Shown here: piece after piece, positions 3,121 through 44,945 of the stretch
How the letters are laid out: each line of letters begins with the position of its first letter
Position numbering within the stretch: the stretch's first letter is position 1
Assembly: GCA_022827265.1 (NCBI GenBank)
Contig: JAJDTF010000097.1
Coordinates: 1 to 64,000 of the forward strand
Direction: 5' to 3'
From: Acidimicrobiia bacterium
GTDB lineage: Bacteria > Actinomycetota > Acidimicrobiia > Acidimicrobiales > Poriferisodalaceae
DNA length: 64,000 bases
The notes under the pieces: generated by a model
Told to the model about the DNA's origin: nothing
What the model saw: only the letters and a program-made list of their open reading frames with translations
Database searches by the model: none
Made by a program: the position numbers and the translations under genes

Positions 3121-3200
3121 CGGGCCACGGCTTCGCCCGGAACTTCCCGCGCTCGTTCGCTTCGCTCACGGGCCGCTCGGGCCCCGGCCTCAACCTCTGG
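3121..3200 (+). repeat. Intergenic repeat family, copy A (partial)
   Basis: This copy lies just after the stop at 3103. It contains the family core TTCCCGCGCTCGTTCGCTTC followed by GCTCACGGGCCGCTCGGGCC, and an isolated GGGCCACGGCTTCGCC just before it. Better copies are at 31861-31947 (reverse) and 35703-35796. Each copy begins directly downstream of a gene. Confidence 0.6.
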
Positions 3201-3203
3201 GCG

Positions 3204-4160
3204 TCAGTCGCAGTCGAGGCGGTAGGCACCTTGGTGGGGGACCATGATGCCGGCGGTGGGCCCGCCGAAGTGCGTGCCGATCACCAGCGTCTCGCCATCT
3301 GCCCAGTCGCCGAACGCCAGGTGGCGGGTGCGGCGGGCCTCGTCGGGGTCGGTGTCGAACATCGAGCTGAGATCGGGGTCGGCGAGCTGCATCGGGGTGT
3401 GCGCCATGTCGCCGGTGATGATTGCCCGCTTGCCGCTGCTAGCGACCACCACCGAGAGATGCCCCGGCGTATGGCCCGGTGTCGACTGGAACGACACTTC
3501 TGAGCAGATGCTGTCGACCGCTTCGACCATGTTGGCGCGGTCCGCTGCAGCGATGGGCGCCACGGAGTCCTCGAACACGGCATCGCCGAACAGGTCCTCG
3601 TGGTTGGCCCAGTAGTCGTACTCGGGGGCGCAGAACAGGTACTGCGCGTTGGGGAACGTGGGCACCCATTCGCCGTCGGCGTTCATGCAGGTGTTCCAGC
3701 CCACGTGGTCTACGTGCAGGTGGGTGCACACCACATGGGTGATGGACTCGGGCGGGAAACCCGCCGCGGTCATGTCGTCGAGGAATGGACCCTGCTGGCG
3801 GTGCCACAGCGGGTTGGTGCGTTCTTTGTCGTTGCCGACGCAGGTGTCCACGGCGATGCGGTGTTCGCCCGCCGAGATCACGCAGGTGTGGATTCGCTGC
3901 AGCAGGTAGCCGTCGTCGCTGACGAAATGCGGGCGCAGCCACGGTGCCGCCTCGGCACGGGCGAGCACGCAGCCCTTGCTGACCCCGTCGTAGAGGAAGC
4001 GCGGCGAGGTCGGCGTGGCGGTCTCCGAGACGGAGGTGATGGACACCTCGCCGATCTGCCACCGCTGCGGCTCGGCACGCTCGACGTCCGCTGCACTGTC
4101 TCCGCCCGTGCCGCCGTCGGCCGCCGTCCGGGAGGCCTCGCTTTCAGCGGCGGCGCTCAT
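3204..4160 (-). CDS. Metallo-beta-lactamase-fold hydrolase
   Basis: A 318-residue protein with the zinc-binding HLHVDHVGW motif, a downstream TPGHTPGHLSV histidine site, ITGDMAHTP carrying the bridging aspartate, and a late IGTHFGGP histidine. These are the metal ligands of the MBL fold. The first 35 or so residues are Ala/Glu-rich and probably disordered. The ATG at 4158-4160 overlaps the stop of the upstream gene by 4 bases, which fixes this start over the longer frame. The function is hydrolytic (lactonase, thioesterase or similar), substrate unknown. It forms a two-gene unit with the DinB/MDMPI-like gene. Confidence 0.85.
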   Translation of the reverse strand: MSAAAESEASRTAADGGTGGDSAADVERAEPQRWQIGEVSITSVSETATPTSPRFLYDGVSKGCVLARAEAAPWLRPHFVSDDGYLLQRIHTCVISAGEHRIAVDTCVGNDKERTNPLWHRQQGPFLDDMTAAGFPPESITHVVCTHLHVDHVGWNTCMNADGEWVPTFPNAQYLFCAPEYDYWANHEDLFGDAVFEDSVAPIAAADRANMVEAVDSICSEVSFQSTPGHTPGHLSVVVASSGKRAIITGDMAHTPMQLADPDLSSMFDTDPDEARRTRHLAFGDWADGETLVIGTHFGGPTAGIMVPHQGAYRLDCD

Positions 4161-30669: not shown

Positions 30670-31302
30670 GTGACAGAATCGGCGCTCGTGCAGAGGGTGA
30701 TCGCGTTGGACATGGAGGGCGTCTTGACGCCCGAGATCTGGATAGCGGTGGCCCAGCGCACCGGCATCGACGAGCTGAGACGTACGACCCGTGACGAGCC
30801 GGACTACGACGCGCTGATGCGGTACCGGATCGATGTGCTCAACACCCACGGCGTGTCGCTCGAGCAGATCCGCGACGTGATCGCTGAGCTGCCGCTGCTG
30901 GAGGGAGCGCGGGAGTTTCTCGACGAGCTCCGGCAGCGCTGGGTCGTGGTGCTGCTGTCGGACACGTTCGAGCAATTCGACGATCACTTCCTGGAATTGA
31001 TGGGCTACCCCCACTTGCTCTGCCACCGTCTCGACGTGGCCGACGGGCGTTTGGCGGGGTGGAGACGTCGGGTGGACGATGCCAAGCGGCGCGCCGTCGA
31101 GGCGTACCGGGCGCTGAATTACCACGTGACCGCCATCGGCGACTCCTACAACGACCTCACAATGCTGAGGGCGGCCGACGCGGCCAGCCTGTTCCGATGT
31201 CCCGAGGCGGTAGCCGAAGCCAATCCGGACCTGCCGGCGGTGTCCACCTACGGCGAGCTGCTGCGCTGGATCGAGTGCGTGCAGGTGCCGGCCACCCGCT
31301 GA
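30670..31302 (+). CDS. thrH: ThrH-like HAD phosphatase (phosphoserine phosphatase/homoserine phosphotransferase)
   Basis: A protein of about 210 residues of the HAD superfamily that closely follows the ThrH pattern: LDMEGVLTPEIWIAVAQRTG with the nucleophile and acid aspartate/glutamate, TTRDEPDYDALM, LSDTFEQF, and GDSYNDLTML. Note that the motif I residue two after the nucleophile is Glu, as in ThrH. ThrH dephosphorylates phosphoserine and can transfer phosphate to homoserine. The start is uncertain: GTG at 30670 or 30688; no Shine-Dalgarno is seen. The gene is monocistronic, divergent from the monooxygenase. Confidence 0.88.
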   Translation: MTESALVQRVIALDMEGVLTPEIWIAVAQRTGIDELRRTTRDEPDYDALMRYRIDVLNTHGVSLEQIRDVIAELPLLEGAREFLDELRQRWVVVLLSDTFEQFDDHFLELMGYPHLLCHRLDVADGRLAGWRRRVDDAKRRAVEAYRALNYHVTAIGDSYNDLTMLRAADAASLFRCPEAVAEANPDLPAVSTYGELLRWIECVQVPATR

Positions 31303-31376
31303 GCCCCGGGGCTCGGACGCCGGATACGCTGCGAGCCACATGTTCCCCAAACAACGAACAGGGACGGAGCGAAGCA

Positions 31377-31859
31377 ATGGCGATTGAGGTCGGCGACCAG
31401 ATTCCCGATGTGACACTGCGAGTACTGGACGAGGGCGGAATGCCTGCGCCCGTGCAGTCCGGCGAGATGCTGGGCAGCGGCAAGGTGGTGCTGTTCGCAG
31501 TGCCGGGTGCATTCACCCCGGGCTGCAGCAACGTCCACCTCCCGGGATACGTCGAAGGTGCATCCGATCTTGCCGGCAAGGGTGTCGACAAGATCGTCTG
31601 CGTTTCGGTGAACGACGCGTGGACCATGAACGCCTGGGCGCAGGCTCAAGGCGCAGAAGGCATCGAGATGGCTGCGGACGGCAACGGCGACTTCGCCGAG
31701 GCCATGGGCCTCGTCATGGATGGCTCGGGTTTCGGCCTGGGTTCTCGCTCCCGGCGCTACGCGGCGGTCATCGAGGACGGGACGGTGACTGCGCTCGAGG
31801 TCGAGCCGGCAGGTGCTGTCGACGTGTCGAGCTGCGCCTCGATTCTGGGCAAGCTCTGA
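31377..31859 (+). CDS. Peroxiredoxin (Prx5-type)
   Basis: A 160-residue peroxiredoxin with the Prx5 active site PGAFTPGCSNVHLPGY; the peroxidatic cysteine is C50. Further family segments are DKIVCVSVNDAWTMNAWAQ and GLGSRSRRYAAVIEDG. It reduces peroxides in the cytoplasm with a thiol donor. The ATG at 31377 has GGAG 8 bases upstream; a longer frame starting at 31059 is a shadow of thrH. It ends next to a reverse-oriented copy of the dispersed repeat. Confidence 0.92.
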   Translation: MAIEVGDQIPDVTLRVLDEGGMPAPVQSGEMLGSGKVVLFAVPGAFTPGCSNVHLPGYVEGASDLAGKGVDKIVCVSVNDAWTMNAWAQAQGAEGIEMAADGNGDFAEAMGLVMDGSGFGLGSRSRRYAAVIEDGTVTALEVEPAGAVDVSSCASILGKL

Positions 31860-31860
31860 C

Positions 31861-31947
31861 CAGAGGCTGAGCCGAATGGCGAAGCCGTGGCCCGAGCGGC
31901 CCGTGAGCCCGTGTTTCATCGAATTCGGGAACAAGAGCGGGAAATAG
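31861..31947 (-). repeat. Intergenic repeat family, copy B (reverse orientation)
   Basis: Read on the minus strand this gives TTTCCCGCTCTTGTTC, a 20-base insertion relative to copy C, then GCTCACGGGCCGCTCGGGCC, ACGGCTTCGCC and ATTCGGCTCAGCCTC. It begins right after the peroxiredoxin stop at 31859 and ends before the ROK kinase gene. Confidence 0.7.
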
Positions 31948-31981
31948 CCGGTGACGCGCCGGCAGTATCTTCCCGGCGCTC

Positions 31982-32929
31982 ATGACATCCAGCACGCCGA
32001 GGACTGCTGACGTGGCCCGCGAAGCGACATCGGCTGTGCACGTCGGCTTCGATGTCGGCGGCACGAAGATCTTCGGCGTAGTGACCGATCATGGCGGCAC
32101 CGTGCAGCGGACCCTGCGCGAATCGACGCCCCACGGTGCGGCGCCGCTGATGGAGGCGCTGGCCGACATGACGGCACGCCTCGGCAACGGATCGCGCCCG
32201 GCTTCGGTTGGCGTCGGGATGGCCGGCCTGATCACGCTCGACGGTCGCGTCACGGTCTCGCCCAACCTCGTCGACGTCGACGGCGCGGACATCGGGTCCG
32301 GGCTCAGCAATCTGCTGGACATGCCGGTGGTCCTCGACAACGAGGTGAACTGTGCCGCCCGGTGGGAGATGTCCGCTGGTGCGGCGCGTGGCGTTCGCAA
32401 TGGCGTCATGGTGTCGCTCGGTACCGGCATCGGCGGAGCGTTCATGCTGAACGGCGAGGTGCTGCGCGGTTCAGGGGGCCTGGCAGGGGAGCCCGGTCAC
32501 ATGGTCGTCGAGGCCGGGGGTCGCGAGTGCGCCTGCGGGCGACGGGGATGCTGGGAGATGTACGCATCCGGCTCCGCGCTGGACCGGATGGCCGTCGAGC
32601 GATTCGGCCAGGCATGCCGCGGACCAGAGGTGACTGCCGCAGCACGCCAAGGTGATGCTGCGGCGCTCGAAGTGCTGGACGAGTTCGCGTACTGGCTCGC
32701 GCTGGGGATCTCGAATCTGTGCATCCTGACCGATCCCGAGATGGTGGTGATCGGCGGCGGACTCAGCGAGGACTGGGATCTGTTGGCGCAGTCCACCGAC
32801 GCACATGTGACAGCGCTGCTCATCGGCCGGTCGGCCGAATCCCGCCCCCGGATCGTGCCCTCCGAAGCCGGCGAGCTCTCTGCGGCGCTCGGCGCTGCGC
32901 TAGGCGGCGCTGTCAGTCGAGTGACGTGA
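31982..32929 (+). CDS. ROK-family sugar kinase (glucokinase-like)
   Basis: A 315-residue ROK kinase. The phosphate motif is FDVGGTKIFGVV. The catalytic DNEVNCAARWE and the SLGTGIGGAFMLNGE segment follow. The ROK zinc site reads GEPGHMVVEAGGRECACGRRGCWEMYASG in pieces, with one His and three Cys. It should phosphorylate glucose or a similar hexose with ATP. There is no helix-turn-helix domain, so it is an enzyme rather than a ROK repressor. A TATCTT hexamer 10 bases before the ATG may be its -10. The stop overlaps the GTG of dacB. Confidence 0.9.
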   Translation: MTSSTPRTADVAREATSAVHVGFDVGGTKIFGVVTDHGGTVQRTLRESTPHGAAPLMEALADMTARLGNGSRPASVGVGMAGLITLDGRVTVSPNLVDVDGADIGSGLSNLLDMPVVLDNEVNCAARWEMSAGAARGVRNGVMVSLGTGIGGAFMLNGEVLRGSGGLAGEPGHMVVEAGGRECACGRRGCWEMYASGSALDRMAVERFGQACRGPEVTAAARQGDAAALEVLDEFAYWLALGISNLCILTDPEMVVIGGGLSEDWDLLAQSTDAHVTALLIGRSAESRPRIVPSEAGELSAALGAALGGAVSRVT

Positions 32930-34398
32930 GACCGCTGCGCACCGCCGTGCTGGTGTTGTTGACGGCGGCGGCTGGCCTGCTGCCCACGGTGGCGGCCGTG
33001 CGCATGAACTCCTCGGCCGATGATGCTGCAGCACATGCAGCCTCGCTCCGCACTCCCGTGTTGGCCTCCACGCCAGATGAGCCTGCGCCCGACGGCGCAG
33101 GCGGGACTGGAGCAGCGGCGTCGGCGCTGCCGCTGCTCCGCGCCGAGCGTGCACCCGACGCGCTGTGGCGGGCGGCACAGCAGCACCACATCGGCAATGA
33201 GATGACCGCGTTCAGTTCCGACTGGCCCGAGCCGCACTGCCTCGCGATCTGGATCGACGGCGTCGAAGTGTTCTCCAGCAATCCCGATCCGGTGATCCCC
33301 GCGTCCGTGCAGAAGCTCATCACTGCCGCAGCAGCTCTGGCCGTGGTCAATGCCGATGAGCGGCTGGTCACCCAGGTGCTGACGGACGCGGAGATCGTCG
33401 ACGGCGTCCTTGACGGCACCGTCTGGGTCGTCGGTGGCGGTGATCCGCTGATCATGACGCAGTCCTATGCAGATTCTCACCGGCGTCAGCCGCAGTTGCG
33501 TACGCCGATGGAAGGCCTCGCTGATGACCTTGTCGCCCTCGGCCTCGAAACGCTGCGGGGCAATCTCATTGCCGACGAGTCTCGCTATGACACGACGCGA
33601 TTTCCCGAGACGTGGCCGCAGCGGTACATCACGCAGCTCAACAGCGGCCCGCTGTCGGCCCTGAACCTCAACGACGGCATCACGGGCTTCACGACGACGC
33701 TGTCCGCGGCTGAGCACCCGGCACGCTGGTTCGCTTCCACGCTCGCGGACCTGCTTCGAGTCCGAGGTGTTTCGGTGGATGTCGAGATCGATGTGTCAGC
33801 GGCGCCGAGCGGCATGACCGAGATCGCCCGCCTCACGTCGCCCCCGCTGGTGGAGATCATCCAGCAGATGCTGCGCGAGAGCGACAACACCACTGCGGAG
33901 ATGATGCTGCGCGAGATCGGCCTGCGCGGCGCCGGAGCAGGCTCCACGCCGGTCGGCGCTGCGGCCGCCGAGCGGATCGTGTCGGATCTGCTGCCCGACC
34001 AGCCCCGGCCTGCAGTAGTGGACGGTTCGGGGCTGGACCGCCAGAACATGGTCACGTGCAGCTTCCTCGCCGCGCTGCTGGATCACTTCGGCATCGACTC
34101 TGATTTCGGGGCGGCACTGCCGGTAGCGGCACGCACGGGGACGCTGTCGCACCGGTTCGCCGAGCATCCCGCAGCAGGTCGGCTCCATGCCAAGACCGGC
34201 CTGCTCACCGGCGTGAACGCTCTCGCCGGGTTCGTCGAGACCGACAGTGGGACGGTGACGTTCGCGCAGCTGCTGAACGGCGTGCCGCCCGAGGGTCGCC
34301 TCGGCCTGGAACTGCAGGAGTCATTGGCCGGACAGCTCCTGCGGTACCCCGTGGGAGACGCACTCGCCCTGCGAGGATTGACCCGTGCCCCCGCCTGA
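32926..34398 (+). CDS. dacB: D-alanyl-D-alanine carboxypeptidase/endopeptidase (PBP4 family)
   Basis: A 490-residue exported peptidoglycan hydrolase of peptidase family S13. An N-terminal signal (LRTAVLVLLTAAAGLLPTVA) is followed by a spacer, then the three penicillin-binding motifs: SVQK at 127-130, SDN at 319-321 and KTG at 423-425. It trims or cleaves peptide stems outside the membrane. The GTG start overlaps the ROK kinase stop (GTGA) and its 3' end overlaps the LON-domain gene by 14 bases, so it is part of a tight operon. Confidence 0.92.
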   Translation: MRPLRTAVLVLLTAAAGLLPTVAAVRMNSSADDAAAHAASLRTPVLASTPDEPAPDGAGGTGAAASALPLLRAERAPDALWRAAQQHHIGNEMTAFSSDWPEPHCLAIWIDGVEVFSSNPDPVIPASVQKLITAAAALAVVNADERLVTQVLTDAEIVDGVLDGTVWVVGGGDPLIMTQSYADSHRRQPQLRTPMEGLADDLVALGLETLRGNLIADESRYDTTRFPETWPQRYITQLNSGPLSALNLNDGITGFTTTLSAAEHPARWFASTLADLLRVRGVSVDVEIDVSAAPSGMTEIARLTSPPLVEIIQQMLRESDNTTAEMMLREIGLRGAGAGSTPVGAAAAERIVSDLLPDQPRPAVVDGSGLDRQNMVTCSFLAALLDHFGIDSDFGAALPVAARTGTLSHRFAEHPAAGRLHAKTGLLTGVNALAGFVETDSGTVTFAQLLNGVPPEGRLGLELQESLAGQLLRYPVGDALALRGLTRAPA

Positions 34399-35032
34399 GA
34401 TTCGACCCATGTTCCCGCTCGGATCGCCGCTGCTGCCTGGCGCTGTGCTGCCGCTGCACATCTTCGAACCTCGGTACCGGGCGCTCGCCAGGCGGTGCAC
34501 CAGCGACGATGACCCATTCGGCGTAGTGATGATCGAGCGCGGCAGCGAGGTCGGCGGCGGCGATGTGCGCGCCGAGGTGGGTTGCCTGGCCACCATTGCC
34601 CAGCACCAGGAACTGCCCGACGGACGTTGGGTGATGCTGGCCACCGGCGATCGGCGGATCAGGATTGTCGAGTGGCTGGTCGACGACCCCTACCCCCGGG
34701 CTCTGGCCTGCGATTGGCCCGACGATCCTGCAGAGGTAGCCGCCCAGGAACGCAAGACGGTCGTGGCCCGACTGCGCCGCCTGCGCGCTCGGGCATCTGA
34801 GATCGGAGCGCTCGGAGTGACCGCAGCCGAGTCGGCTGCCATCGACGATCAGCTCGCGAAGCTCGCCGTGGCGCCCGCTGAGGCATCAGCCTGGTCGTTC
34901 CAGATCGCGTCGCTCGTGCCCGCTGGCCCGTTCGACCGCCACAGCCTGCTGTGCGCCCCAGACCCCGCCAGCCGGGTGGACGTCATCGGGGAGATCCTCG
35001 ACGGCGTAGAAGAACTGCTGGGCGAACGGTAG
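34385..35032 (+). CDS. Stand-alone LON substrate-binding domain protein
   Basis: A 215-residue protein equal to the N-terminal domain of Lon protease without the ATPase or peptidase. It starts with the typical FPLGSPLLPGAVLPLHIFEPRYRAL, followed by GCLATIAQHQELPDGRWVML and a helical tail. Such proteins are widespread in Actinobacteria and their job is not settled; protein substrate or adaptor binding is a guess from the domain. The start is a GTG inside the end of dacB (14-base overlap). Confidence 0.9.
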   Translation: MPPPEIRPMFPLGSPLLPGAVLPLHIFEPRYRALARRCTSDDDPFGVVMIERGSEVGGGDVRAEVGCLATIAQHQELPDGRWVMLATGDRRIRIVEWLVDDPYPRALACDWPDDPAEVAAQERKTVVARLRRLRARASEIGALGVTAAESAAIDDQLAKLAVAPAEASAWSFQIASLVPAGPFDRHSLLCAPDPASRVDVIGEILDGVEELLGER

Positions 35033-35039
35033 CGTAGCG

Positions 35040-35420
35040 GTGACTGTGCCTCGACGAGACTCCGGACTGCGAGCCGAGATTTCCGATTTGGTCGGCATGC
35101 TGCGGTCCTACATCGTCCAGGAGACGGTGGGCCCGCTGCGCGGGCTGGGCAGGTATGTCCTGTTCGGCGTCATCGGCGCAGTCGGCGTGAGTCTGGGAGT
35201 GGTCTTCGGGGCGCTGGGAGTGGTGCGCGTTCTGCAGGCCGAAACCGACCTCTTCAATGCGAACTGGTCATTCGTTCCCCATGTGGCTGGGGCTGTTTTT
35301 CTCTTGCTGGCGATCGCGCTGCTGATCCGCGCTATCCGGCCGAAACACGCCGATGCCACTGCGCCGGAACCGCCCGCACGACGGGCCGACGAGAATGCAG
35401 CAGAGGATGACGATGGCTGA
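35040..35420 (+). CDS. Small two-helix membrane protein (DUF1469/phage-holin-like family)
   Basis: A 126-residue protein with an amphipathic N-terminal helix and two hydrophobic helices, YVLFGVIGAVGVSLGVVFGA and VAGAVFLLLAIALLIRAI, followed by an acidic, Pro/Ala-rich tail. This is the layout of the DUF1469 (putative actinobacterial holin-X/phage holin superfamily III) proteins. The start is GTG 35040 or 35046. It overlaps the next gene by 8 bases. Function unknown; context (LON-domain protein, envelope peptidase) gives no clear hint. Confidence 0.7.
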   Translation: MTVPRRDSGLRAEISDLVGMLRSYIVQETVGPLRGLGRYVLFGVIGAVGVSLGVVFGALGVVRVLQAETDLFNANWSFVPHVAGAVFLLLAIALLIRAIRPKHADATAPEPPARRADENAAEDDDG

Positions 35421-35658
35421 CGGCAACAGGGGTACCGGGGCGGGATCGAGCGCAGCTAGCCAGCACATCACGCCCGCGGACATCTCCGATCGCGTGCGAC
35501 AGCTCGTCGGCGGAGCGGGTGACGCAGCCGAGCAGGTGTCCAGCGCCGCTGTGGCGGTAGCTGCCACCGTCGGTACCGGCCTGGTGCTGGCCGCATTCCT
35601 GTTCGGCCGTCGCAGGGGTCGCCGACGCAGCACGCTCGTCGAAATCGTCCGGGTATAG
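35413..35658 (+). CDS. Small single-helix membrane protein
   Basis: An 81-residue protein: a polar N-terminus (about 45 residues, with the amphipathic stretch ADISDRVRQLVGGAGDAAEQ), one hydrophobic helix (AAVAVAATVGTGLVLAAFLF), then a very basic GRRRGRRRS cytoplasmic anchor. AGAGG lies 7 bases before the ATG at 35413, inside the end of the preceding gene, so the two are coupled. I do not recognise a named family. A copy of the dispersed repeat begins 45 bases downstream. Confidence 0.6.
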   Translation: MADGNRGTGAGSSAASQHITPADISDRVRQLVGGAGDAAEQVSSAAVAVAATVGTGLVLAAFLFGRRRGRRRSTLVEIVRV

Positions 35659-35702
35659 GAGGCCGCGCAGATGTGTGAGCCTTCTTGTTGTCGCACCTGT
35701 TG

Positions 35703-35796
35703 TTTCCCGCTCTTGTTCGCTGCCGCTCACGGGCCGCGCGGGCCACGGCTTCGCCTATCGGCTCAGCCTCCGAGAGGCGGCGCCCGATGGCGAAGC
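35703..35796 (+). repeat. Intergenic repeat family, copy C, with palindromic end
   Basis: The copy contains TTTCCCGCTCTTGTTCGC, GCTCACGGGCCGCGCGGGCC, ACGGCTTCGCC and TATCGGCTCAGCCTC. Its right part (35747-35796) is an imperfect palindrome: GCTTCGCCTATCGG on the left pairs with CCGATGGCGAAGC on the right with a single bulged base. The ATG of the next small gene (35787) lies inside the right arm. Confidence 0.7.
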
Positions 35797-36032
35797 GGCT
35801 GAGGCGAATGCCGGCCCGAGCCACCGACGCAATGTGGCGACGGGCGCGGACCGGCAATGGGATATGGCTGGCCGCGGCGATCATGGCGAGCGGGCTGCGG
35901 TTGCTCGTTCGCTGGTCCAAGCGCGAGCGGGATGTGGTCTACCGCGGCGAGTTGGCACCGGGCGACCAGCTCATGATCCGACACGTACCACCGGAATACG
36001 AGGGTGGCAGTTCGGCGGCGGAGGGGGCGTGA
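35787..36032 (+). CDS. Small membrane-associated protein coupled to trmI
   Basis: An 81-residue protein with a basic N-terminus, a hydrophobic stretch (GIWLAAAIMASGLRLLV), then KRERDVVYRGELAPGDQLMIRHVPPEYEGG, an ending that looks like a conserved cytoplasmic tail. The stop overlaps the GTG of trmI (GTGA), which supports it being real. The start is uncertain: ATG at 35787, 35808 or further in; the first is inside the palindromic repeat, so the repeat may have supplied or altered the N-terminus. Function unknown. Confidence 0.55.
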   Translation: MAKRLRRMPARATDAMWRRARTGNGIWLAAAIMASGLRLLVRWSKRERDVVYRGELAPGDQLMIRHVPPEYEGGSSAAEGA

Positions 36033-36889
36033 ATCAGGCTGACGAGCTGGAGAGCGGCGAGCTGCAACCGGGCGAGACAGTCTTGATGGTCGACAGTCGG
36101 CAGCGTCGGTACCTCGTGGCGCTGCGCTCTGGCGGCGAGTTTCACACTCATGCTGGCGTCGTGCCGCACGACCAGATCATCGGCTCTCCCGAAGGCACGG
36201 AGTTCCGCAGCGGATCGGGTGCCCGCTTCGTGGCAGTGCGCCCGACGCTCGCTGATCACGTACTGAAGATGCCGCGTGGCGCGCAGGTGATCTATCCGAA
36301 GGATCTCGGCGCGATCTGGATGCTGGCCGACGTTCGAGCCGGCATGGCAGTCTTCGAGACCGGCGTGGGCTCAGGTGCCCTGTCGGCGACGCTGCTCCGC
36401 TGCGGTGCCTTCGTCACTGGCTACGAGCTGCGGGAGGATTTTGCCGAGCGAGCTGTCCAGAACGTCGAGAGCATTGCCGGCGCCGAAGCGCTGGATCGCT
36501 ATGACGTCCAGCTCCGCGATGCGTACGAATCGATCGATCCGCCGCGCAGCGATCCGTCACCGAGCAATGCCGGCACGGGAGCTGCCGGAGACGTGAGTAC
36601 TTCGGGGCGCCGGTACGACCGGGCCGTGCTCGATATCCCCGAGCCTTGGCGGGTTGCGGTGCACTTGCCCGGGCGGCTCCGGCGTGGCGGAATCCTGGTG
36701 GCGTACAACCCGTCAGTGACCCAAGTGCAGCAACTGCGTCGCACGCTGGACGATGGACCGTGGGCGCTCATCGAAACCATCGAGGTCATGCACCGGAGCT
36801 GGCATGTCAAGGGAGCTTCCGTGCGGCCGGATCACCGCATGGTCGCCCACACCGGCTTCCTGACGCACGCCCGATTGATCGAGGCGTGA
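36029..36889 (+). CDS. trmI: tRNA (adenine-58-N1)-methyltransferase TrmI
   Basis: A 286-residue SAM-dependent tRNA methyltransferase that makes m1A58 in the T-loop. It has the N-terminal beta domain (VLMVDSRQRRYLVALRSGG, with the HTHAGVVPHDQIIG motif), the QVIYPKDLGAIWML segment, the SAM motif VFETGVGSGALSATLL, and a DIPEPW catalytic-site motif. A stretch of about 15 residues (SDPSPSNAGTGAAGDVSTSG) is a low-complexity insertion before that motif. The GTG start has GGAGGGGG upstream. In Actinobacteria trmI is typically just upstream of the proteasome ATPase gene, as here. Confidence 0.93.
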   Translation: MNQADELESGELQPGETVLMVDSRQRRYLVALRSGGEFHTHAGVVPHDQIIGSPEGTEFRSGSGARFVAVRPTLADHVLKMPRGAQVIYPKDLGAIWMLADVRAGMAVFETGVGSGALSATLLRCGAFVTGYELREDFAERAVQNVESIAGAEALDRYDVQLRDAYESIDPPRSDPSPSNAGTGAAGDVSTSGRRYDRAVLDIPEPWRVAVHLPGRLRRGGILVAYNPSVTQVQQLRRTLDDGPWALIETIEVMHRSWHVKGASVRPDHRMVAHTGFLTHARLIEA

Positions 36890-37789: not shown

Positions 37790-37914
37790 GAAGCTCACGC
37801 TTCGATCTGTGCTTGTCGCTTCATCTCGGCCTACGCCTCGATCTGTGCTTGTCGCTTCATTGAAGCTCACGCTTCGATCTGTGCTTGTCGCTTCATCTCG
37901 GCCTACGCCTCGAT
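37790..37914. repeat. 36/72-bp tandem repeat (minisatellite) between convergent genes
   Basis: A 23-base core, TCGATCTGTGCTTGTCGCTTCAT, occurs at 37802-37824, 37838-37860 and 37874-37896, spaced exactly 36 bases. A longer 53-base block is identical at 37790-37842 and 37862-37914, so the array has a 72-base super-period. The last unit overlaps the final codons and stop of the ferredoxin gene on the minus strand, and the other units repeat that ATCGAGGCGTAG (or GAAGCGTGA) end. Confidence 0.85.
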
Positions 37915-40154: not shown

Positions 40155-41663
40155 GTGGCGGTTCACAAGGTCGTTGGCATCGAGACTGAGTTCGGCATCA
40201 TCCATCGCTGCATGGGCGACTCCAATCCCGTTGCGGCATCGTCGATGATCATCAACGCCTACGTCAACGGGTTCCTGTGCCAGCGCGTCAGCTGGGATTT
40301 CGAAGACGAGCAGCCGGGTGCTGATGCGAGGGGCTTCAACGAGTTCGACGCGCTGGCACCCGAGATCGAGACGCACCTGGTCAACGCCGTGCTGACCAAC
40401 GGCGCTCGCTACTACGTCGACCACGCGCATCCTGAGCTGTCGACTCCGGAGTGCTCGGACGCACGCCAATGCGTGGTGTACGACCGGGCAGCGGAGGAGA
40501 TCCTGATCCGGTCCATGCAGGCTGCCAACAACCTCCTGCCCGACGACGAAGAGCTCGTCATCCACAAGAACAACAGCGACGGCAAGGGCAACAGCTACGG
40601 CTGCCACGAGAACTACCTGCTCGACCGCGATGTGCCGTTCGGGAGGGTGGTGACGCACATCCTGCCGTTCTTCGTGACCCGCCAGATCTTCTGCGGCGCC
40701 GGCAAGCTGGGCGTCGAGGTTCCGATGAACGACGGCTCTGCGCCGCCGTTCGGCGACCGGCCGTTCCAGGTCAGCCAGCGCGCCGACTTCTTCGAGGAGG
40801 AAGTCGGGCTCGAGACCACGCTCAAGCGGCCCATCGTCAACACCCGCGACGAGCCTCACGCCGACACGCGCAAGTACCGGCGCCTGCACGTCATCATCGG
40901 CGACGCCAACATGAGCGAGCTGCAGACGTATCTCAAGCTGGGCACGACCTCGCTGGTGCTGGCGATGATCGACGACGACTTCCTGCCCGAGCCCCTGACG
41001 CCGCTCGTGCCGGTCGCGGCGCTGCGCCAGGTGAGCTTCGACACAGCCCTGTCGGGGCTGATCGAACTGGTCGACGGCCGTCGCCTGCGAGCCATCGAGG
41101 TCCAATGGGAATATTTGGACCTGGCCCGGAAGTATGCGCAGAGCCATGGTCTGGATCCCGTCGGCGGCGACGACATCGGCAATGACATCCTGGACCGCTG
41201 GGAAGCAGTGCTCACCGGGCTGGAATCAGATCCGATGGGGCTCGCGACGCAGCTGGACTGGGTGGCGAAGCTGCGCCTGTACGAGGCATTCGCCGAGCGG
41301 CACGGCCTCGACTGGGACGATCCGAAGCTGGCCGCCCTCGACCTGCAGTATCACGACCTGCGGCCGTCGAAGTCGCTGTCGCGACGCGTCGGTCTTGAAC
41401 GGATCACGACCGACGACGAAGTGGACGAGGCGGTCTCCGTGCCGCCGCCGACGACACGCGCGTACTTCCGGGGTCGTTGCCTCGACAAGTTCGGCGAGGA
41501 GATCGTGGCCGCCAACTGGGATTCGATGGTGTTCGACATCGGCACCGATCCGCTGCGCCGCGTGCCGATGCTTGAACCGCTGCGAGGAACCCGCGCGCAC
41601 GTGGGTAGCTTGTTGGACGAGTGCCGGGACGCGGCCGAGTTGCTGCGCCGGCTGGGCAATTAG
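40155..41663 (+). CDS. dop: Deamidase/depupylase of Pup (Dop)
   Basis: A 502-residue member of the Pup ligase/glutamine-synthetase-like fold. It starts VVGIETEFGII, where the glutamate helps bind ATP-magnesium, and has the Dop-specific loop after it (CMGDSNPVAASSMIINAYVN), [34 protein letters not shown] and [19 protein letters not shown]. The insertion after strand 1 distinguishes it from PafA. Dop removes Pup from targets and, in species whose Pup ends in Gln, deamidates it. Here Pup already ends in Glu, so depupylation is likely its main job. Confidence 0.95.
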   Translation: MAVHKVVGIETEFGIIHRCMGDSNPVAASSMIINAYVNGFLCQRVSWDFEDEQPGADARGFNEFDALAPEIETHLVNAVLTNGARYYVDHAHPELSTPECSDARQCVVYDRAAEEILIRSMQAANNLLPDDEELVIHKNNSDGKGNSYGCHENYLLDRDVPFGRVVTHILPFFVTRQIFCGAGKLGVEVPMNDGSAPPFGDRPFQVSQRADFFEEEVGLETTLKRPIVNTRDEPHADTRKYRRLHVIIGDANMSELQTYLKLGTTSLVLAMIDDDFLPEPLTPLVPVAALRQVSFDTALSGLIELVDGRRLRAIEVQWEYLDLARKYAQSHGLDPVGGDDIGNDILDRWEAVLTGLESDPMGLATQLDWVAKLRLYEAFAERHGLDWDDPKLAALDLQYHDLRPSKSLSRRVGLERITTDDEVDEAVSVPPPTTRAYFRGRCLDKFGEEIVAANWDSMVFDIGTDPLRRVPMLEPLRGTRAHVGSLLDECRDAAELLRRLGN

Positions 41664-43577: not shown

Positions 43578-44945
43578 GTGAGCGCCGTGCAGCGGCGCAT
43601 CATGGGTGTCGAGAACGAGTACGGCGTCACGTGCACACTGCGGGGACAGCGGCGCCTCAGCCCCGACGAGGTGGCGCGCTACCTGTTCCGTCGGGTGGTG
43701 TCGTGGGGCCGATCCAGCAACGTGTTCCTGGCCAACGGGGCGCGCCTGTATCTCGACGTCGGCAGCCATCCCGAGTACGCCACGCCGGAATGCGATTCCG
43801 TCTATGACGTGGTGTGCCACGACCGTGCGGGCGAGCGGATCCTCGAACAGCTCGTCGCCAGCGCCACCGAGCGACTGGCAGAGGAGGCGTTCAACGGCAC
43901 GATCTTCCTGTTCAAGAACAACACAGACTCGGCCGGCAACAGCTACGGATGCCACGAGAACTACCTGACCAGCCGGGCTGATGACTTCTCGAACTACGCC
44001 GAGGTGCTGATCCCGTTCCTGGTGACCCGGCAGATCTACGCCGGCGCGGGCAAAGTGCTCAATACGGCCAAGGGCGCCCGGTATTGCATCACCCAGCGGG
44101 CGGAGCACATCTGGGAGAGCGTGTCGAGCGCGACTACCCGCAGCCGTCCGATCATCAACACCCGCGACGAGCCGCACGCCGACGCTGAGCGCTTCCGGCG
44201 CCTGCACGTCATCGTCGGCGACTCGAACATGAGCGAGTACACGTCATTCCTCAAGATCGGCGCGGCTGCGCTGATGCTGCGCATGCTCGAGGATCCCGCC
44301 GTGGTGCTGCGGGACATGACGCTGGAGAACCCGATCCGGGCGATCCGCGAGATCAGCCACGACATCACCTGCAGACGCAAGGTGCGCCTGGCAAATGGGC
44401 GTGAAGTGAGCGCGTTCGACATCCAGTCGGAGTACCTGGAGCGAGCCCTGCGCTTTGCCGAGACGAACGATCTCACCGAGGAGGAATCGCGTGCTCTGCA
44501 GATGTGGGAGCACGTGATGACGGCGATCGGCGACGATCCGCTGCAGCTCGACCGCGAGGTGGACTGGGTCATCAAGCACAAGCTGCTCACGAGCTATGCC
44601 GACCGCGCTGGAGTCGGCTTCGACGACCCTCACATTGCACTGTTGGACCTGCAGTATCACCATGTTCATTCGACGCGAGGCGTCTTCTATGTGATGCAGC
44701 GGCGCGGCCTGGTCGAGCGAGTACTGGATGACGCCGATGTGCGTCGGGCTACCGAGGAAGCGCCCCAGACGACGAGAGCCCGGCTGCGCGGGGCGTTTGT
44801 TCGCGAGGCCAAGGCCCGGCGCCGTGACTACACCGTGGACTGGGTGCATCTGAAGCTCAACGACCAGGCTCAGCGAACCGTCCTGTGCAAGGACCCGTTC
44901 CGTTCCCACGATGAGCGTGTCGACAAGCTGATCGAGTCGCTGTGA
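43578..44945 (+). CDS. pafA: Pup-protein ligase PafA
   Basis: A 455-residue ligase that phosphorylates the C-terminal Glu of Pup and joins it to substrate lysines. It starts [14 protein letters not shown] (ATP-magnesium glutamate), then [34 protein letters not shown] and [19 protein letters not shown]. The absence of the long Dop loop after the first strand separates it from dop, with which it shares most motifs. The start is probably GTG 43578; an internal ATG at MGVENEYG is less likely. It is last of the contiguous Pup genes. The usual actinobacterial neighbours pafB and pafC are not present downstream. Confidence 0.95.

Follow-up and report, generated by a model that had tools for sequence, protein, structure and literature searches.

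A dispersed short repeat with a conserved fold and presence/absence variation in Acidimicrobiia

Is the short repeat found between genes at positions 31,861 to 31,947 of this Acidimicrobiia contig a mobile element, a working part of host transcripts, or a chance resemblance? We analysed a window of 64,000 nucleotides (the whole stretch presented here, on contig C73 of a 3.8-Mb genome in 163 contigs), for which an initial annotation had listed three copies of the repeat. Of the motifs described as common to them, GCTCACGGGCCGCTCGGGCC and TTCCCGCTCTTGTTCGC were indeed present at the places given in all three copies (three matches each in the window, the former at up to 3 mismatches, against 0.11 and 0.22 expected from shuffling), but ACGGCTTCGCC..GGCTCAGCCTC was found in copies 2 and 3 only. 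The strand that carries the structure discussed below is the reverse of the one first described.

The copies were delimited with R1, a sequence-only model of 112 positions that was built from 39 of the genome's own copies, and the bounds first given turned out to be too short. Copy 3, a full-length element of the short type, occupies 35664-35773 on the minus strand (90.8 bits, E 2.7e-27 over 35664-35772). Its 110 bp lie between two GAGGC sequences, a 5-bp direct repeat on both sides. Within it we located a first hairpin, P1 (35747-35768, minus strand; GGCU-GA-GCC, a 4-nt loop and GGC-GA-AGCC, identified from sequence, fold and covariation), a second hairpin, P3, with a GGCA (GNNA-type) loop (35715-35730, minus; sequence and cross-lineage covariation), and 3' of P3 the conserved AAGAGCGGG (35706-35714, minus; sequence). 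Copy 2 is a long-type element on the plus strand at 31860-31971 (80.8 bits, E 3.7e-24), with P1 at 31865-31886 and a P3 about 15 nt longer at 31903-31932 (both from sequence and fold), followed by AAGAGCGGG at 31933-31941. Copy 1 belongs to a nested dimer form, of which it represents the first unit (3138-3203, minus strand; R1 38.8 bits over 3138-3194, and 65.7 bits with model R2); its P3, with a GAA loop, lies at 3155-3169 on the same strand. The second unit (3121-3137, minus) consists of the 3' arm of P1 and the start of the core and is then cut off at 3121, with a weak R1 match of 9.8 bits.

Each copy had been said to begin directly after a stop codon, and this is right in substance if either end of the element is counted. 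Copy 2 starts immediately after the TGA (31857-31859) of a Redoxin gene, the AGAGG of copy 1 lies 5 nt past the stop of the minus-strand gene 3204-4160, and it is the far end of copy 3 that lies 5 nt past a TAG (35656-35658). Other features of the window were a direct repeat with 36-nt spacing in three overlapping copies (37790-37914), two genes with DNA blocks 72-78% identical (40155-41663 and 43578-44945; presumably a Pup ligase/depupylase pair), and a weak match, under the cut-off, to the Pycsar effector TM family (35046-35420).

A search of the whole genome for further copies gave at least 142 matches to R1 at E<=1e-3 among 150 candidates that were scored, as would be anticipated for the dispersed REP- or MITE-like family that the initial annotation had proposed. 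Because 35 of the matches form 16 adjacent pairs and one triple (17 clusters picked by eye), the 142 correspond to about 124 places. The 16-mer GGGCCACGGCTTCGCC alone, at up to 2 mismatches, occurred 148 times in the genome, whereas the reversed pattern was found 37 times. Every one of the 11 genus genomes searched (Acidimicrobiia metagenome-assembled genomes, or MAGs, which are incomplete) carried the repeat, each with at least 38 matches, 38 being the most that were scored per genome. With the excess of the motifs over shuffling, these numbers leave no probability to the explanation that the three copies are chance similarities or local duplications. We also noted three adjacent matches about 32 kb past the window on the same contig (G000:C73:96323-96490).

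Outside the genus, the 28 genomes of the same family comprised one with 29 matches (G017), four with one or two and 23 with none; further carriers belong to other families of the same order. A model of the core structure matched 39 of 296 genomes of the class (our own included), in 27 of 149 genera, and 21 of these genomes had at least 10 core matches each, with up to 20 scored per genome. The repeat is thus not specific to the lineage in the narrow sense first suggested. In a phylum-wide sample of 396 genomes, 7 gave matches; three were members of the class (our own, G072 and G098), and the four from outside it had one weak match each. Among the loci from other families, the core search found no core at L215, L220, L223, L226, L229, L230, L231, L237 and L239. 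The copies observed in one genome, G045 (L176, L195, L200, L205, L208), were near-identical and extended 3' by a long additional conserved part, which gives the impression of recent amplification.

The repeat did not correspond to an Rfam family. Rfam 15 gave no match in the window at the gathering threshold and, at eight loci, none on the element at E<=5; this permissive threshold gave a tRNA in one of the flanks, and two matches to miRNA families that scored well under the respective cut-offs. One exact gapped pattern of the element had no matches in viral contigs. We found no account of the element in the open-licence PMC literature, in which four 11-13-mers of the core occurred in nine papers that, from their titles and the beginnings of their abstracts, all deal with other subjects.

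When the copies were aligned on the structured strand, the consensus read approximately (Y)NAG AGGCTGAGCC NNNN GGCGAAGCC GTGGCCCGAGCGGCCC GTGAGC GNA GCGAAC AAGAGCGGGAAACAACAGGTGACGCAACGAGAAGGTTCACCAATCCGCGCA. The element begins with P1 (GGCU-GA-GCC/GGC-GA-AGCC), continues with the core GGCCCGAGCGGCCCG and P3, usually with a GNA loop, and then reaches AAGAGCGGG; the core and AAGAGCGGG show little variation. P3 has a short form (GUGAGC-GNA-GCGAAC) and a long form with about 15 extra bases (as in copy 2), and in the nested dimer form (as in copy 1) a second core and P3 lie within the P1 loop. Among copies of the genus that were picked because they nearly matched the P1 5' arm, all 7 pairs were intact in 127 of 137, and GA stood opposite GA in 135 of 136. 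In other families the P3 stem has been replaced and is still paired (GGCGGC-GAA-GCCGCC, GUUGGCC-GCA-GGCCAAC, GCGUGC-GCA-GCACGC, GGCGAC-GGA-GUCGCC, GGCGCC-GUA-GGCGCC). By a rule of our own, 102 of 120 distinct short P3 strings form hairpins (76 with GNA, 9 with GNNA and 17 with other loops) and 18 do not.

We further evaluated the two stems by covariation, using alignments of 45 (A2) and 37 (A3) of the 68 sequences listed. For P1 and P3 together, in 45 diverse sequences, the covariation score, the share of paired cells and the number of double-changed cells were each reached by 0 of 500 shuffles; the numbers of double-change pairs (80 of 500) and of pair types (56 of 500) were not beyond shuffling. 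P3 alone gave 0 of 500 for the score, 0 of 500 for pair types and 123 of 500 for double-change pairs. In 41 distinct class-wide rows the values were 0, 15 and 48 of 500 for score, pairs and types, respectively, in an alignment made with the model and hence leaning towards it. When one partner was slid by 1 to 3 columns, the score dropped every time. Comparison across lineages therefore supports a real structure, in which the pairing of the stems is conserved rather than their sequence. An outer helix around P3 (P2, CCCG/CGGG, proposed by RNAalifold) had no covariation, and in 20 of the 45 rows one of its pairs was disrupted; for this reason we do not claim it.

Folding of the RNA, which the initial annotation had recommended, was less instructive. 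The energies were ordinary (z from -1.9 to 0.7 on the structured strand and from -0.9 to 1.1 on the other), so that minimum-energy folding is uninformative as evidence of structure; the P3 hairpins of copies 1 and 3 are absent from the minimum-energy folds of these copies. A scan for intrinsic terminators (31300-36300) showed no terminator-like site within copies 2 and 3.

The mismatches in the stems indicated which strand might be the folded one. P1 had 9 G-U against 1 A-C on the modelled strand (counted in those rows that keep 5 or more of its 7 pairs, 19 of 45). The count for P3 was neutral, at 4 G-U against 8 A-C as aligned, and 4 against 3 once stems of the G017 type were put in register. 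Propagation through reverse-transcribed copies of the folded RNA would agree with the tolerance of G-U in P1 and with the covariation, which points to a folded single strand; nothing positive was seen for it beyond this, and we consider this route improbable.

The occupied sites were compared with the same places in relatives. Copy 3 was absent from G007, where the site is clean (flanks 94.5 and 90.6% identical, gap 0). It was also absent from G004, G008, G009 and G010, with flanks of 85-92% and nothing in place, and from the more diverged G005, G001, G003 and G006. All nine congeners compared were thus empty, G002 having no comparable place. Copy 2 was present in G007, truncated in G008 and missing from six others compared. 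Clean filled/empty pairs were also obtained at other congeneric loci, and at L142 the copy adds 38 residues in frame to a protein; the relative of this protein at L086 lacks them. Two pairs, L040/L127 and L170/L059, resemble deletion remnants, so some of the absences elsewhere may be losses. The high copy number, the presence/absence between relatives, and the intergenic and one in-frame insertions indicate that the element moves. Polymorphism of this kind among close relatives, which is a property of MITEs, adds weight to the REP/MITE-like reading. The congeners that lack copy 3 (L348, L350 and L349, compared over window positions 35640-35810) read approximately TAAGAGGCTGAGCCC(C/G)ATGGCGAAGCGG at this place, which resembles P1 from an earlier copy in the sense orientation; its ATGGCGAAG could start the downstream gene.

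The ends of the element bear on the question of what moves it. A MITE of a classical DDE insertion sequence, with worn ends, would have the size and the copy number seen here. It would also account for the 5-bp direct repeat at copy 3, and for the enrichment of CTNAG at the far end, where 30 of 135 copies have this motif, compared with 3.7% of random 22-nt windows. However, the consensus ends showed no terminal inverted repeat (15% of shuffles did at least as well), and the 135 copies had no fixed target duplication in common, although direct repeats were in weak excess at a few offsets. IS110, a family that we searched, was not present in all carriers: its transposase (PF02371) was found in 6 of the 11 genus genomes and was absent in 5, and IS110 is not supported as the driver. 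We regard a DDE-derived MITE as an unlikely origin.

The best-understood REPs are moved by RAYTs, and a search for such a transposase had been part of the original proposal. Y1_Tnp (PF01797) was found in 0 of the 11 genus genomes and in 1 of 32 element carriers, although with incomplete MAGs a single absence is weak; the same search gave matches in 5 of 14 named genomes that served as a control. The tag GT[AG]G within 8 nt 5' of P1 was seen in 1 of 137 copies. Both results go against a RAYT-driven REP/REPIN family, for which the copy number, the intergenic sites and the hairpins with GA-type mismatches would speak, together with the P1-like GGCTGAGC..GCGAAGCC palindrome of the Coxiella REP, as given in an excerpt of its description (PMC2817692). 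We judge such a family to be very improbable. TnpB (PF07282) occurred in none of the 11 genus genomes and is likewise not supported as the driver. No autonomous, gene-carrying version was seen by eye among the genome matches listed. Since Y1 transposases, TnpB and, in half of the genomes, IS110 were not found, the family must depend, or must once have depended, on some other mobiliser.

We also evaluated whether the copies sit where an element acting at mRNA 3' ends would be expected. After removal of duplicates, 176 of 200 matches were left, of which 138 had two called neighbours, 28 lay within called ORFs and 10 were at edges. The 138 copies of the genus comprised 45 in sense and 33 in antisense between co-oriented genes (p=0.21); a further 24 had convergent neighbours and 36 divergent ones. 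The adjacent gene pairs with gaps of at least 30 nt, at loci that had been picked for carrying a copy, numbered 307 co-oriented, 92 divergent and 57 convergent, and neither the convergent nor the divergent placement of the copies departed clearly from these (p 0.09 in each case; all p values in this study are nominal and for single tests). Among the 69 copies at which an upstream gene (in the element's sense) ends, 47 had the stop between -20 and +3 nt relative to where the model starts; the opposite end is faced by the stops of 57 genes, with a median distance of 0. As stops are close to both ends, this closeness may reflect only the tight packing of genes. The stop codon itself is not the same at several of the filled and empty junctions (TGA filled and TAA empty at L119, TAG filled and TGA empty at L145 and L052), which offers a simple reason why gene ends tolerate the element.

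A role at mRNA 3' ends is therefore not the rule in the genus, with its near-random orientation, but it fits better in some other families. In G203, 12 of 20 copies lay between convergent genes (p 7e-7 against the genus background). The genomes of family f72 had 17 copies, of which 8 lay between co-oriented genes in the sense direction, a further 3 were within called ORFs of the same sense and 2 were in antisense (sense against antisense 11 to 2, p 0.02), and copies in sense between two genes made up 5 of 6 in G043 and 3 of 3 in G131. Across f72, G043 and G131 the called start followed GAGCGG by 2-8 nt in 12 of 16 sense cases, with gene calls from our own codon-usage caller, which was trained on the window and may misplace starts. 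The context of these copies suggests that in some families they may have become established as elements between cistrons or at 3' ends.

Conservation after insertion was estimated from copies shared between named genomes. These loci were chosen by an exact 31-mer, and the identity of the 31-mer stretch itself was set aside. Among the matches listed, its carriers were Acidimicrobiia MAGs (jk18 and p16 isolates, APA_bin_4, SB0675_bin_4, CO36386bin_14), whose isolate names may hint at sponges as their source, and 2 of 23 pairs could not be placed. The 3' half of P3 with AAGAGCGGG was 97.9% alike, against 93.4% for the tail and 92.7% for the flank (9 differences in 423 positions for the P3 part against 69 in 1046 for the tail, p 3e-4). 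In loci picked by an adjacent exact match, this difference hints at constraint after insertion, and so at a possible host function.

Could the element, then, be primarily a host RNA element, that is a 3'-end stabiliser, a processing site or an intercistronic translation element that acts in the transcript and has spread mainly by selection? The sense bias in f72, G043 and G131, the called starts after GAGCGG, the convergent excess in G203 and the better conserved P3 part would all be in line with this. Against it stand the near-random orientation in the window's own genus, copy 3 itself, which is antisense to both neighbouring genes, the co-oriented places of G072 (8 antisense, 1 sense), and the fact that copies appear and vanish between sister species. 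We think it doubtful that such a role is the main explanation.

Together, these results are best explained if the repeat is a mobile element, short (about 110 bp) and non-autonomous, with a strand that can fold into P1 and P3 around a near-invariant core, and we consider this reading to be probable. For such a mobile element, an enzyme of another family, acting in trans, would recognise the folded single strand (as ssDNA or RNA) and would place new copies in no preferred orientation and with no fixed target duplication. The surviving copies would then gather at stop codons, where an insertion does no harm and the first bases of the element, (Y)NAG AGGCTGAG, often supply the stop. A wider reading, which we put forward only tentatively, is that of a class-wide mobile RNA whose fold, and not the sequence of its stems, is recognised by non-RAYT machinery (possibly as RNA), with domestication in several Acidimicrobiia families. 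In this joint and equally tentative proposal, the domesticated form would be a standard intercistronic piece that reaches from the stop codon to the ribosome site of the next gene.

The large and mostly uncultured class thus has an abundant, apparently recently active repeat family with a conserved structure, and gains a covariation-supported nucleic-acid motif without an Rfam match. Since some families appear to hold settled copies, selfish spread and recruitment can be compared inside one element family.

Among known systems, REPs and REPINs, as described in excerpts of PMC2817692 and PMC3733652, are likewise high in copy number, mostly extragenic and built on imperfect palindromes, and the GGCTGAGC..GCGAAGCC palindrome is common to our element and the Coxiella REP (PMC2817692). 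Unlike these, the present element is about 110 bp long and combines a long fixed core with two hairpins that differ from each other, and it has neither the GTAG tag (1 of 137) nor, in all but 1 of 32 carriers, a Y1_Tnp. CGTC-tagged repeats and the Rickettsia palindromic elements resemble it in that, in the excerpts of their descriptions, no dedicated transposase is known and in-frame insertion occurs. CGTC, however, is found within 10 nt before P1 in just 7 of 137 copies, and the Rickettsia elements (about 150 bp) insert into genes in frame as a habit in the excerpted accounts (PMC3733652, PMC10969869), against one proven case here. The bcr repeats, in the excerpt of PMC6542083, are of 100-400 bp, restricted to one group, with mobile features, an undefined mechanism and a mobility tied to TTTAT motifs; bcr1 has 11 to 130 copies per genome in the Bacillus cereus group. 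Our element differs in its CTNAG-like ends without a proven duplication and in having relatives across a class and not in one species group. By analogy, and setting aside the RAYT and GTAG criteria, which it fails, the element appears to work like a REP or bcr-type repeat, and as far as these excerpts describe them, bcr1 is the nearest known system in copy number and group restriction.
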